Part shown: one piece after another, positions 633 through 7,141 of the stretch
Layout: every line of letters begins with the position of its first letter
How positions within the stretch are numbered: the first letter of the stretch is position 1
Assembly (NCBI GenBank): GCA_913009315.1
Contig: CAJVZA010000073.1
Coordinates: 1 to 7,364 of the forward strand
DNA: 7,364 nt
Source of the DNA: an uncultured Hippea sp.
GTDB lineage: Bacteria; Campylobacterota_A; Desulfurellia; JAADFJ01
Reading direction: 5' to 3'
The notes under the pieces: generated by a model
Told to the model about the DNA's origin: nothing
The model's input: the letters and a program-made list of their open reading frames with translations, nothing else
Databases searched by the model: none
Program-made: the position numbers and the translations under genes

Positions 633-1577
633 ATGCTAAAAGAAAAGGATTATGATTATCTGTTTGGACCGGTACCTTCAAGAAGACTCGGAAGATCATT
701 GGGAGTAAATCTCGTTCCCAAAAAGATATGCAGTTATGATTGCGTTTATTGTGAAGTCGGTTCAACTGTAATTACAACCGTTGAGAGAAAAGAATATATT
801 GAATTGCAAAAATTGTTAAGCGAGATAGAAGAATTTACAGCCCGCAACAGGGAAATTGATGTAATTACGCTTACCGGTGCAGGAGAACCTACATTAAATA
901 GCTGCATAGGCAGCTTAATTAAAGCAATTAAAAAAATTATTACAGATATTCCTGTTGCCGTTCTGACGAATGGATCGCTTCTGTATCTTCAGGATGTAAA
1001 AGAATCCCTGCTTGATGCCGATATAGTGATTCCATCTGTGGACAGCGTGAATGAGAAAGATTTTTTTATGGTTGATAAACCGGATAGGCATATTAGCCTC
1101 GGAAAGGTTCTGACCGGAATCAAAGAGTTTTCGTACCTTTATAAGGGAAAGTTATGGCTTGAGATTTTGATGGTTAAGGATTTTAATGACAGCAGCGAAA
1201 GCATAAAAAAGCTTGGAATGTGGGCATCAACAGTGAGAGCTGATAAACTTCAGCTTGGCACCATTATAAGACCTCCCGTTAAGAATGTGAGTCCGGTATC
1301 ATTTGAACAACTGAAAAGAATTAAGCGCAGTCTCGAATCATTTTTGAGCTATCCGGTTGAAATTACGGGTGAATTTGAGAGTGAATCGAAATGTGAAAGA
1401 ATCTCGCAAAATGCACTTTTGTCAAGCTGCAATATGAGACCTCTTACAAAAGATGATATTATAGATATCTATGGAAGGAGCGACGATTTGGATGATACGA
1501 TTTTTGAGCTTCTCAGGGAAGGGAAACTTCAGGAGAGAAATTTTGGCAATAAACGATTTTTTGTAGCATCAAAATGA
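633..1577 (+). CDS. Radical SAM protein, COG0731 (wyosine-synthetase-like) family
   Basis: This 314-residue cytoplasmic radical SAM enzyme should bind a 4Fe-4S cluster and cleave S-adenosylmethionine; its substrate is unknown. The N-terminus FGPVPSRRLGRSLGVNLVP is characteristic of the bacterial branch of COG0731, related to archaeal Taw1. The cluster motif is CSYDCVYC with C33, C37 and C40, followed by the SAM-binding GAGEPT (residues 82-87) and LTNGSLL (about 111-117). The last 45 residues (RPLTKDDIIDIYG to the end) look like a small winged-helix domain, usual in this branch. It is not MoaA: it lacks the second C-terminal cysteine cluster and the terminal GG. The stop codon overlaps the moaD start by ATGA, so the two are probably translationally coupled, which suggests a role near molybdopterin metabolism. 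That role is inference. Bacteria do not make wybutosine, so the family name should not be taken as a function. Confidence 0.9.
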   Translation: MLKEKDYDYLFGPVPSRRLGRSLGVNLVPKKICSYDCVYCEVGSTVITTVERKEYIELQKLLSEIEEFTARNREIDVITLTGAGEPTLNSCIGSLIKAIKKIITDIPVAVLTNGSLLYLQDVKESLLDADIVIPSVDSVNEKDFFMVDKPDRHISLGKVLTGIKEFSYLYKGKLWLEILMVKDFNDSSESIKKLGMWASTVRADKLQLGTIIRPPVKNVSPVSFEQLKRIKRSLESFLSYPVEITGEFESESKCERISQNALLSSCNMRPLTKDDIIDIYGRSDDLDDTIFELLREGKLQERNFGNKRFFVASK

Positions 1578-1816
1578 AGGTCATAGTCTTTTACTTTGCC
1601 GCCATCAAAGATATAATCGGCATCGATTCGGAATCAATAGATCTTAAAGAATCGACCGACACCGATTGTTTAAAGATGCTGTTATCGGAAAAATATCCTT
1701 CGGCAAGGCGATATTTTGAAAATTCGAGAGTTGCGGTCAATTATGAGTATTGTGAAAACAAGGTACTAAAAAATAACGATGAGGTTGCATTTATACTTCC
1801 GGTTAGCGGAGGATAG
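1574..1816 (+). CDS. moaD: MoaD, molybdopterin synthase sulfur-carrier subunit
   Basis: MoaD is the small ubiquitin-like subunit of molybdopterin synthase. Its C-terminal Gly-Gly is adenylated by MoeB and converted to a thiocarboxylate, which donates sulfur to cyclic pyranopterin monophosphate in MoaE. The 80-residue length is normal. The beta-grasp opening MKVIVFYFAAIKDIIG and the C-terminus EVAFILPVSGG match the family closely, and the intact GG tail marks it as an active sulfur carrier. The start codon lies inside the ATGA overlap with the radical SAM gene, with no ribosome-binding site of its own visible, so translation is probably coupled. Its partner moaE is 0.9 kb downstream on the same strand, separated by a metal-binding-protein gene. 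A general ThiS-like carrier is the main alternative, but the presence of MoaE favours MoaD. Confidence 0.93.
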   Translation: MKVIVFYFAAIKDIIGIDSESIDLKESTDTDCLKMLLSEKYPSARRYFENSRVAVNYEYCENKVLKNNDEVAFILPVSGG

Positions 1817-1862: not shown

Positions 1863-2714
1863 GTGATGCAGAGGAGAGAATTTTTTAAAAGACTGATTTC
1901 GATGACGGCTGTCGGCATATTGCCGGATGCAAAGAATTTGATTGCATGCAGCATATGGCCGCTCTATTTAATTACAAAAGAAATTGTTGACGTAAGTCAA
2001 TTTGAAATTAAAACTATTGTGCCGCAATGGAAAGATCCTCACGATTATGTTCTTAAACCGAAAGATAAGTTAATGCTTGACAACGCTTCATTATTTTTTG
2101 AGATAGGATTGGGGATTGAAAAAAATATGAAATCAAAAAAAAGTATTGTACTATCCGAAAATTATCCTAATCTCATAGGAAGGCATAGAGTTGGAAACAT
2201 AGTAATTGCAAATCCTCATATCTGGCTTGATCCGGTGATTGTAAAAAATTATATTTTGCCCGGTATATTGAATGTTTTGGTCAAAAAATATCCCTCGGTT
2301 GTAAGTATAAAAAAAGTGAAGGGGTTCAAAGAGCGATTGAGTGAAATGAACAAGAGATTTGAGACTGATTTGGCTGCCGTAAAGTCGGTTCCTTTTATAA
2401 CGGAGGAAGGAGCATTTGATTATTTTGTCAGACGTTATCATCTTAATCTTGCAGGCAGCGTAGAACGGGATAAAAGTAAGGCCGGATCGAACATCAGATG
2501 GCTTTATAATCTATCCGGTATAATAAAAAGGCAAAATGTGCATGTTTTATTTATACATGCGGCGAGCTCCATTGAACCGTTTAGAATTTTTGTGGAGGAT
2601 TACGGACTTAAGATATACAGACTCCATCCTCTCGGGTATGGACAAAGCAGCTACAAATCAATGATGTATGGTAATGAAAGGACGATTTTAAAGGTATTAA
2701 AGAAATGGACATAA
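1863..2714 (+). CDS. ZnuA/TroA-like metal-binding protein with altered ligand set and Tat-like leader
   Basis: This 283-residue protein resembles the periplasmic substrate-binding proteins of zinc/manganese ABC transporters (TroA/ZnuA, cluster A-I). The leader MMQRREFFKRL has a twin-arginine pattern (R4 R5 x F F K) followed by a short hydrophobic stretch; Sec proteins of this family normally lack it. Family segments are SIWPLY (30-35), PHDYVLKP with H60, NASLFFEIGLGIE, PHIWLDP with H119, FITEEGAFDYFVRRYHL and RLHPLGYG. In classical members the third ligand is the His of a 'HDAFGYF'-like segment and the fourth an Asp/Glu before 'PLG'. Here these are E182 and H255, so His and acid appear exchanged. 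No permease or ATPase gene is adjacent. The gene lies between moaD and moaE. It begins with GTG at 1863 immediately followed by ATG at 1866, and either could be used; no strong Shine-Dalgarno is seen. The metal and role are unknown: orphan import receptor, metal chaperone, or a protein for a periplasmic metalloenzyme. Confidence 0.82.
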   Translation: MMQRREFFKRLISMTAVGILPDAKNLIACSIWPLYLITKEIVDVSQFEIKTIVPQWKDPHDYVLKPKDKLMLDNASLFFEIGLGIEKNMKSKKSIVLSENYPNLIGRHRVGNIVIANPHIWLDPVIVKNYILPGILNVLVKKYPSVVSIKKVKGFKERLSEMNKRFETDLAAVKSVPFITEEGAFDYFVRRYHLNLAGSVERDKSKAGSNIRWLYNLSGIIKRQNVHVLFIHAASSIEPFRIFVEDYGLKIYRLHPLGYGQSSYKSMMYGNERTILKVLKKWT

Positions 2715-2756: not shown

Positions 2757-3197
2757 ATGATTAAAGTGACAAAAGAGAGATTGACCTCTGCGGCAATAGC
2801 AGCAATCTATGATGAGGTTAAAAAAGATGCCGCCGGAGCAGTGCTCATATTTGTCGGAACGGTAAGAAATTGCACTAAAGGCAAAACGGTTTTATCGATA
2901 GAATATGAATGTTATGAAAAAATGGCCGCCGCTCAACTTCAAAAAATCGCCGACGAGGCTGAGCATCGGTGGAAATTATCGGCTTTAAAAATAGTACATA
3001 GATACGGAAAACTTGAACCCGGAGAGATATCCGTGATTATTGCTCTTTCCTGTGTTCATCGAAAAGAAGCTTACGAAGCATCCGAATTTATTATAGATAC
3101 TATCAAACGATCTGTTCCAATCTGGAAACGTGAAAAATTTGATGACGGAACAGTTGAGTTCGGAAAATCCGAATATAATATGGAATTATCATGGTAG
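2757..3197 (+). CDS. moaE: MoaE, molybdopterin synthase catalytic subunit
   Basis: MoaE is the large subunit of molybdopterin synthase. As an (MoaD)2(MoaE)2 heterotetramer in the cytoplasm it inserts two sulfurs into cyclic pyranopterin monophosphate to make molybdopterin. The 146-residue product (151 if started at 2742) has the family blocks in order: GAVLIFVGTVRN with the anion-binding Arg, IEYECYEKMA, RWKLSALKIVHRYGKLEPGEISVIIALSCVHRKEAYEAS, and VPIWKREKF holding the conserved active-site lysines. The 2757 start is preferred because of its Shine-Dalgarno sequence and because MoaE proteins commonly begin close to MIKVT. The stop overlaps the next gene by seven bases (ATGGTAG), indicating translational coupling to the thioredoxin-like protein. 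All key residues appear present, so the enzyme should be functional with the MoaD encoded upstream. Confidence 0.95.
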   Translation: MIKVTKERLTSAAIAAIYDEVKKDAAGAVLIFVGTVRNCTKGKTVLSIEYECYEKMAAAQLQKIADEAEHRWKLSALKIVHRYGKLEPGEISVIIALSCVHRKEAYEASEFIIDTIKRSVPIWKREKFDDGTVEFGKSEYNMELSW

Positions 3198-3505
3198 AAG
3201 AACTTACGGCAGAAAATATAGATGAAAGGATAGCTGAAAACAGACTAATGTTCATCTATTTTTATGCCGTGCCATGCGAAAGCTGCGAGTTTATGAATCC
3301 TGTAATTGAAAAGCTTTCACAAATTTTTACGAATATTCCATTTGCGAGAATAAATATTGTTGAATATCTTGATGTTTTTGATAAATATGATATAGTTAAT
3401 ACGCCCACTATGATTTTTTTTAGAAATGGAAAAGAAGCTTGGAATGGAATAGGTCAACTTACATTAGATGCTATACTTTTTCAAATAAAGCGTTATATTG
3501 AATAA
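3191..3505 (+). CDS. Thioredoxin-like protein with CESC active site
   Basis: This 104-residue protein has a full-length thioredoxin fold and no signal peptide, so it is presumably cytoplasmic. The active-site segment is FIYFYAVPCESCEFMNPVIEKL, giving C29-E-S-C32. The Trp and the Gly-Pro of the classical WCGPC are replaced, so its redox potential and partners probably differ from housekeeping thioredoxin. The cis-proline loop is present (NTPT, P72), followed by MIFFRNGKEAWNGIGQLT, the usual beta4-beta5 region. The start ATG lies within the last seven bases of moaE, so the two genes are likely co-translated, and the cytochrome gene begins 22 bases after its stop. The role could be thiol reduction linked to cofactor sulfur transfer or to apocytochrome maturation. 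The sequence does not decide between these. Confidence 0.87.
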   Translation: MVEELTAENIDERIAENRLMFIYFYAVPCESCEFMNPVIEKLSQIFTNIPFARINIVEYLDVFDKYDIVNTPTMIFFRNGKEAWNGIGQLTLDAILFQIKRYIE

Positions 3506-3527: not shown

Positions 3528-3812
3528 ATGAAGAAGATTTTCGGTTTTGTAGCAATTGCTGCAGTTTTGGGTTTTGCGGGATTTAGCGTTCAGGCACATG
3601 CAGCGACCGGCAAAACATTATATCAGACAAGCTGTGCAGCATGTCATGGAGCTAACGCAACAGGCGGTGTCGGTCCTAATATTGTCGGTAGAAGTGCGAA
3701 GAATGTAGCAGATGCGATAAAGGATGTTCCTATGATGGCTGGATTAAAGGGAACTATTACAAATGCTGATGAAAAAGCAATTGGTGATTATCTACAATCG
3801 CTAAAAAAATAA
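3528..3812 (+). CDS. Small periplasmic monoheme cytochrome c (class I)
   Basis: This 94-residue precursor has a clear Sec signal peptide: KK at residues 2-3, hydrophobic core FGFVAIAAVLGFAGF, and a likely cut after AHA (residue 25). The mature protein is only about 69 residues. It carries one c-type heme site, CAACH (36-40, His40 as proximal ligand), then GANATGGVGPNIVGR, typical of class I cytochromes. The motif VPMMAGLKG has M69/M70 as candidate distal Met ligand, and IGDYLQSLKK forms the C-terminal helix. It is probably a soluble periplasmic one-electron carrier for a redox enzyme. The gene follows the thioredoxin-like gene closely and precedes a longer cytochrome whose first domain is a near copy, which marks a tandem duplication. 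No partner oxidoreductase is in the window. Confidence 0.92.
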   Translation: MKKIFGFVAIAAVLGFAGFSVQAHAATGKTLYQTSCAACHGANATGGVGPNIVGRSAKNVADAIKDVPMMAGLKGTITNADEKAIGDYLQSLKK

Positions 3813-3890: not shown

Positions 3891-4553
3891 ATGAGAAGAT
3901 TACTTATGATAATAACAGTATTATCGATCTTCGGTTTTGCGGGATTTAGCGTTCAGGCAAATGCAGCAACCGACAAAGCATTATATCGGGCAAATTGTGC
4001 AGCATGCCATGGAGCTAACGCAACAGGCGGCATTGGACCTAACATAGTTGGAAGAAATGCAAAGGATGTGACATACGCACTAAACAATGTTCCTATGATG
4101 ATGTCATTCAAAGGCAGTATAACAAAAAGTGATGTTGATAATATTGGGAAATATCTGAGCTTGTTAGGCAGCAGTAAAATGAGAAAAAAAGAGAACAGCA
4201 AAGCTAATAATATGATTATGAAGAAATCTTCCGCCGTAATCTTGAAAACAGAGAAAGCAGCTATAGCTATGGGCAGAAGACTGTTCAAAGATTCCTCACT
4301 GGGAACAAACGGCAAATCGTGCAACTCATGTCACATAAATATGGGAAGATCTTATAAAAGAGGTCCAATGGGAGCAATGAATTTCTTCAGCAAAGAGAAA
4401 TATCCTCGCTATTTTATGATGGCAAAAAAGGTTATGTCGCTGGATCAGATTATCAATACCTGTGTAAAAATGGCACTGAAGGGTAAGCCGCTGAAGTGGA
4501 ATGATCCGAAACTTACAGCACTTAATGCGTATATTTCAAGTTTGCGCAAATAA
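3891..4553 (+). CDS. Diheme cytochrome c: duplicated class I domain fused to a SoxA/TsdA-like domain
   Basis: This 220-residue periplasmic protein has a Sec signal peptide (residues 1-25, cut after ANA). Domain 1 (26-92) closely repeats the preceding cytochrome: CAACH at 36-40, GPNIVGR, VPMMM (69-71) and KGSIT. A lysine- and Met-rich linker (about 94-120, MRKKENSKANNMIMKK) leads to domain 2 (about 121-220): GRRLFKDSSLGTNGKSC, the heme site CNSCH (144-148), then IINTCVKMALKGKPLKWNDPKLTALNAYISSL. That C-terminal pattern is typical of the SoxA/TsdA-like and related cytochrome domains, with C191 and M194 as candidate distal ligands. It is likely an electron-transfer protein joining two hemes. Thiosulfate dehydrogenase activity is possible only by resemblance and is not claimed. 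The gene ends 18 bases from the end of the convergent fdhD gene. Confidence 0.88.
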   Translation: MRRLLMIITVLSIFGFAGFSVQANAATDKALYRANCAACHGANATGGIGPNIVGRNAKDVTYALNNVPMMMSFKGSITKSDVDNIGKYLSLLGSSKMRKKENSKANNMIMKKSSAVILKTEKAAIAMGRRLFKDSSLGTNGKSCNSCHINMGRSYKRGPMGAMNFFSKEKYPRYFMMAKKVMSLDQIINTCVKMALKGKPLKWNDPKLTALNAYISSLRK

Positions 4554-7023: not shown

Positions 7024-7053
7024 TCGATCGAGGCTGTTGATAAACTCCTATTT

Positions 7054-7141
7054 GTCATTGCGAGCACCGAAAGGTGCGTGGCAATCCCTTTATTGCCAAC
7101 GTTTTTTGAGATTGTTCCGTCACTCTATTCCCAGCAATGAC
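7054..7141. repeat. MITE/REP-like palindromic repeat with GTCATTGC ends
   Basis: The 88-base element is bounded by perfect 8-bp inverted ends GTCATTGC (7054-7061) and GCAATGAC (7134-7141). Near its left end it holds a strong hairpin GCACC-GAAA-GGTGC (7064-7077), itself bracketed by ATTGC and GCAAT (7081-7085). Outside the ends, TGTTGATA (7035-7042) and TATCAACA (7145-7152) form a further 8-bp inverted pair, so the full unit may be about 7035-7152. Repeats of the form 'GTCATTGCGAG...GTGGCAAT...GCAATGAC' are a well-known, very abundant type in many bacterial genomes. No transposase gene is present. The hairpin lies shortly after the sugar transferase stop and might act as a transcript end, but it lacks the following T-run. 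Confidence 0.8.

Follow-up and report, generated by a model that had tools for sequence, protein, structure and literature searches.

The window analysed here, 7,364 nucleotides that make up the whole of contig C73 of a draft genome (G000; 1.74 Mb in 96 contigs, 88% complete), carries at 1863-2714 the gene for a metal receptor with the ZnuA/TroA fold. We consider it fairly likely that this protein is the receptor of a ZnuABC-type divalent-metal importer with a split operon. The receptor, periplasmic or membrane-anchored, would be encoded in a moaD-moaE gene run and would serve an ATPase and a permease encoded alone on another contig.

The receptor gene and its neighbourhood

A profile search matched the open reading frame to PF01297 (E 1.2e-30; 107.4 bits compared with a Pfam cut-off of 29). 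In the AlphaFold2 model (mean pLDDT 89.5) a long helix, residues 149-173, joins two lobes. The nearest solved fold to this model is E. coli ZnuA (2ps0; Z 26.4, 2.3 Å, 247 residues), with TroA, MntC, YfeA and PsaA following about 1-2 Z units below (TroA 1toa, Z 24.9). Judged by profile, modelled fold and N-lobe His pair, the protein is a member of cluster A-I (PF01297) with predicted metal binding, which agrees with the earlier note in its reading of the gene as a ZnuA/TroA-like receptor. The gene and its neighbours are as follows:

633..1577, + strand: radical SAM protein that starts the gene run; PF04055, 9e-15; overlaps moaD
1574..1816, + strand: moaD; ThiS family, 3e-11; TIGR01682, 2.5e-16, just below its cut-off
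1863..2714, + strand: cluster A-I metal receptor (ZnuA/TroA fold); 283 aa, start at GTG 1863 or ATG 1866; PF01297
2742..3197, + strand: moaE; PF02391, 4.6e-37
3191..3505, + strand: thioredoxin-like protein; PF00085, 2.1e-17

The receptor was compared within its family, f1, which consists of three genomes: the window's own (G000) and two congeners, G001 and G002, whose receptors are 90% and 52% identical to it. Within the class, that of Hippea and Desulfurella, we further distinguish two families of Hippea and Desulfurella type, f3 and f4, the former of which we take to be Hippea-like, and a third family, f2. A search of 25 genomes of the phylum yielded no further f1-type receptor. Among 84,980 species, a scan for short peptide patterns, which divergent members could escape, revealed no close relatives beyond the two congeners.

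The position between moaD and moaE, which the earlier note had pointed out, is conserved in the genus. The order moaD-receptor-moaE-thioredoxin is found in G000 and G002, and receptor-moaE-thioredoxin in G001, whose contig ends just 5' of the receptor. Gaps of 46 and 27 bases flank the receptor and the neighbouring genes overlap, which suggests that the moaD-receptor-moaE run is one transcript. The order of moaD and moaE in relatives was also considered as a clue and proved uninformative, since the MoaE-like proteins found in Hippea and Desulfurella are highly divergent (E 1e-9 to 1e-12) and encoded elsewhere.

Three further features of the window were recorded. Tandem cytochrome c genes at 3528-3812 and 3891-4553 have closely similar first domains, and the second gene adds a SoxA/TsdA-type haem domain. 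Illumina adapter sequence at positions 19-76, the contig start, supplies the last residues of a UvrA-like open reading frame (41-604, - strand). Near the contig end, at 7040-7110, a 'cattgcgag...gtggcaatcc' segment resembles a dispersed genomic repeat.

The metal site

Receptors of this kind have sites of two classes, zinc (H,H,H and Asp/Glu) and manganese/iron (H,H,E,D) (PMC4242081, PMC5505154, PMC3851752). The usual order given in the earlier note, three His and then an acid, therefore describes the zinc receptors only. The residues of the site are listed here:

2040..2042, + strand: H60, N-lobe metal ligand 1; invariant in all aligned homologues but L021
2217..2219, + strand: H119, N-lobe metal ligand 2; invariant in all aligned homologues but L021
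2406..2408, + strand: E182, C-lobe ligand position 3; 3/3 in the genus; first residue of helix 182-191 after strand 178-181
2556..2558, + strand: H232, replacing a second-shell Glu that the family conserves (E. coli ZnuA Glu256, TroA Glu248); 3/3 in the genus; end of strand 228-232
2625..2627, + strand: H255, ligand position 4 (the canonical Asp position); unconserved, H/Y/N

Alignment with homologues placed H60, H119, E182 and H255 in the four canonical metal-ligand columns, as had been proposed from the sequence. A further His, H108 in the loop preceding H119, is invariant in f1. At position 255 the window receptor has His, G001 Tyr and G002 Asn, and f3/f4 have Asn or Ser; on the alignment, H255 stands alone, at a position not kept in the class. 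The conservation of H60, H119, E182 and the RRxF[FL]K motif of the leader exceeds what chance would give, whereas the occurrence of H255 does not. In E. coli ZnuA the corresponding Asp279 is not a ligand, and water completes the site (PMC1867320). Given the manganese/iron receptors and E. coli ZnuA, a Glu at position 3 is in itself nothing unusual, and there is precedent for the absence of the Asp.

Zinc-type receptors (ZnuA/TroA) have His at ligand 3, where all three congeners have E182. Manganese/iron-type receptors (PsaA/SitA/YfeA) have Glu at position 3 and Asp at position 4; here the Glu is present and the Asp is replaced by H/Y/N. By its aligned ligands the receptor fits neither subgroup, and we do not file it as ZnuA or TroA because E182 replaces the ligand-3 His.

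The unusual feature that is conserved lies elsewhere in the C lobe. H232 sits in the motif VLFIHA[AT]SS in the three f1 receptors (3/3). We mapped it through alignments with SitA, Lmb and Synechocystis ZnuA and by counting in TroA, where Glu248 is reached after a 5-residue offset from H68. In E. coli ZnuA this second-shell Glu256 (TroA 248) hydrogen-bonds the ligand His207 (199) as well as the strand bearing this His (PMC1867320), and in YfeA Glu256, near site 1, holds a placeholder water (PMC6719664). According to the alignments, f1 has a Glu182-His232 pair where zinc receptors have a His-Glu pair, and manganese-type SitA has Glu at both positions. A further 34 homologues could be aligned at the two positions, and the Glu-His pair was absent from all of them (0/34); they are a sample and not a family-wide survey.

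In the model, E182, H232 and H255 each terminate a C-lobe strand (178-181, 228-232 and 250-254), and from the family topology these strand ends would face the cleft. Topology and the literature on homologues together point to a contact between E182 and H232. We propose that the metal would be held between the lobes by H60, H119 and E182, and that H232 would either support E182 or be a further ligand; it may thus be another His that fills the metal site. Position 255 would not be a required ligand, as water could replace it in the way seen in E. coli ZnuA.

These results bear on the suggestion, made before the comparison, that the acid and the third His had swapped positions. An acid and a His have indeed traded places and the site is odd, but the partner conserved in this exchange is H232 and not H255. 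The pairing of E and H255 with an RR leader, which had been put forward as a feature to look for in homologues, likewise held in part: E182 and the leader are present in 3/3, H255 in 1/3. A site of H-H-E-H type, with the roles of E182 and H255 exchanged, in a receptor that serves a periplasmic metalloenzyme and takes no part in uptake would agree with the residues present, the window devoid of ABC genes and the moa neighbours. We regard it as very improbable, as 255 is Y and N in the congeners and N/S in the sister families, and all three f1 genomes have a lone matching importer (below).

The altered site could also be that of a degenerating receptor, losing metal binding in a fast-evolving lineage. 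The canonical Asp and the second-shell Glu are lost, and the receptor is the fastest-changing protein of the gene run, with 52% identity compared with 64-78% for the others. Its stem in the receptor tree is very long, 2.7 changes per site. This explanation is nevertheless improbable: H60, H119, E182, H232 and the leader are kept in 3/3, and dN/dS is 0.21 against G001 and 0.14 against G002 (dS saturated for G002), like the neighbouring genes. As these values are close to those of moaE (0.18 and 0.14), the receptor is, by this measure, a working gene under selection.

Leader and export

The receptor begins with a leader of a type that the earlier note had considered unusual for the family, and the comparison bore this out:

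1866..1925, + strand: twin-arginine-type leader (RREFFK, weakly hydrophobic core); motif in 3/3 congeners

The leader starts with MMQRREFFKR, and RRxF[FL]K is found in 3/3 f1 receptors. Its Arg codons are AGG AGA here and CGT CGA AGA in G002, and since the codons differ, the twin-Arg motif appears to be kept at the protein level. The most hydrophobic stretch of 12 residues scores 1.46-1.92 in f1 leaders versus 2.48-3.66 in 18 f3/f4 (Hippea/Desulfurella-type) leaders. By these features the f3/f4 receptors have Sec-type leaders, and f1 carries a Tat-type leader instead. A loose RR match also occurs in two Sec-type relatives, G008 and G014, but their cores score 3.36 and 2.94. We also considered a downstream start at M14, which would drop the charged part of the leader, and rejected it; the Arg codons differ synonymously between species.

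TatC is present in the genome, and the predicted route of the receptor is probably Tat, by which it would be exported folded. No AxA cleavage site stands out ahead of the first strand (residue 25), so that the leader may be retained as an anchor. In the open-access literature we found no description of a Tat-exported ZnuA-type receptor or of a moaD-znuA-moaE arrangement.

A precedent for metal loading before Tat export is MncA, a Tat-exported Mn cupin of a cyanobacterium (PMC8867077), although its fold is unrelated and it has no transport role. Both this precedent and the conserved Tat-like leader, as well as the cytochromes downstream in the gene run, would fit a metal chaperone or sensor that folds and is loaded in the cytoplasm, is exported by Tat and delivers metal to a periplasmic protein, the importer being a separate matter. 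No client has been identified, however, and the genome's only importer of this type would then be without a receptor, so that we hold this explanation to be a minor possibility. A related proposal, that the Glu-His inverted receptor folds and takes its metal in the cytoplasm before Tat export, its specificity being set before it meets periplasmic metals, is speculative and unlikely. If true, it would be a novel mode of action among cluster A-I receptors.

A lone transporter pair and its relatives

The receptor had been described as an orphan with no ABC transporter partner adjacent. A profile search indeed detected no ABC genes in the window, but each f1 genome encodes one strong ABC-3 permease (E ~1e-57) adjoining a ZnuC-type ATPase, with no receptor beside them (3/3 genomes). 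A second, weak permease match per f1 genome (~41-46 bits) looks like another permease type. In G000 the lone pair lies on contig C5. The window's own genome has one PF01297 protein and each congener one receptor match, in genomes that are 88-94% complete and in which a second could be missed. In f3/f4, receptor, ATPase and permease are in one operon, and in a tree the ATPase and permease of f1 and f3/f4 form one clade (support 99/98), so that the ZnuC/ZnuB-type pair is orthologous to the Hippea/Desulfurella operons. On these comparisons a split operon would be the simplest reading of the receptor and the lone pair. The receptor tree counts against it, as the long f1 stem joins the Hippea type with support of 58/65, too low to show vertical descent of the f1 receptor. 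With a matching transporter in each f1 genome, the earlier suggestion of a role other than uptake found no backing.

The lone pair is itself upstream of a recombinase, two more genes and then, where the contig reaches (G000, G002), moaA and moaC. If the receptor bound an oxyanion, either molybdate or tungstate, both its moa neighbours and its weakened site for cations would be explained. In favour of this are the moaD-moaE setting of the gene, a transporter pair whose own locus precedes moaA-moaC by a few genes, and the Lys that Hippea-type relatives have at a ligand position. This reading is nonetheless extremely unlikely: two invariant His and a Glu suit a cation, G001 and G002 encode distinct SBP_bac_11 (ModA-type) receptors, and in Hippea and Desulfurella the same uptake system sits away from moa genes. 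Because of the separate ModA-type receptors and the moa-free setting in f3/f4, we do not take the moa neighbourhood as functional evidence for molybdenum, and a link to the molybdenum cofactor is likewise unsupported.

For the proposed split-operon importer, zinc would be the likeliest substrate, with Mn2+ or Fe2+ possible. Zinc is favoured because no ZIP importer was found in the six class genomes searched. Searches detected Nramp in G000 and G001 but not in G002, and FeoB in G002 but not in G000 or G001.

The receptor resembles E. coli ZnuA (2ps0) in its fold, its N-lobe His pair and a canonical Asp position not needed as a ligand (PMC1867320). It differs, at 21% identity, in the Glu at ligand 3, the His in place of Glu256, the Tat-like leader and the separate location of the transporter genes. 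With the manganese/iron receptors PsaA, MntC, SitA and YfeA it shares the Glu at ligand 3, in a similar EGAF-YF motif (SitA alignment), and a fold similarity of Z ~23-25, but it has H/Y/N for the position-4 Asp and His for the second-shell Glu. The Hippea/Desulfurella receptors have a common importer lineage with it, according to the ATPase and permease tree, and C-lobe ligand positions are altered in both. They differ in having K/D/M/E at ligand 3, N/S at position 4, Sec leaders, several conserved Cys and a complete operon.

Some observations concern these relatives themselves. Lys, Asp or Met stands at ligand 3 in 17 of the 18 Hippea/Desulfurella-type receptors and Glu in the remaining one; position 4 is Asn or Ser in all 18, and Cys residues are conserved elsewhere. 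The rebuilt site of f3/f4 receptors (e.g. L032:7818-8666 and L033:8948-9799) is perhaps odder than that of the window receptor. A second receptor of G024 (f3; L127) combines H,H,H with Thr at position 4 and groups with f2 and Synechocystis-type receptors. A His...Cys-x-x-Cys tail is found at the end of the ZnuC-type ATPases of f1, of f3/f4 and of Desulfobacterales (L052:4744-5553; L032:7051-7821; L063:6837-7649) and is missing from those of f2.

The ligand residues of this family serve to predict the imported metal. The f1 lineage suggests that the C-lobe half-site, including an otherwise conserved second-shell residue, can be rebuilt while the N-lobe His pair stays. A receptor that would have become separated from its operon and acquired a different export signal, and that has a rebuilt site, would be a natural test of the determinants of metal specificity. 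If it is the receptor of an ordinary importer, the practical lesson is that a search for lone transporters elsewhere in the genome should come before any proposal of new roles for 'orphan' receptors.
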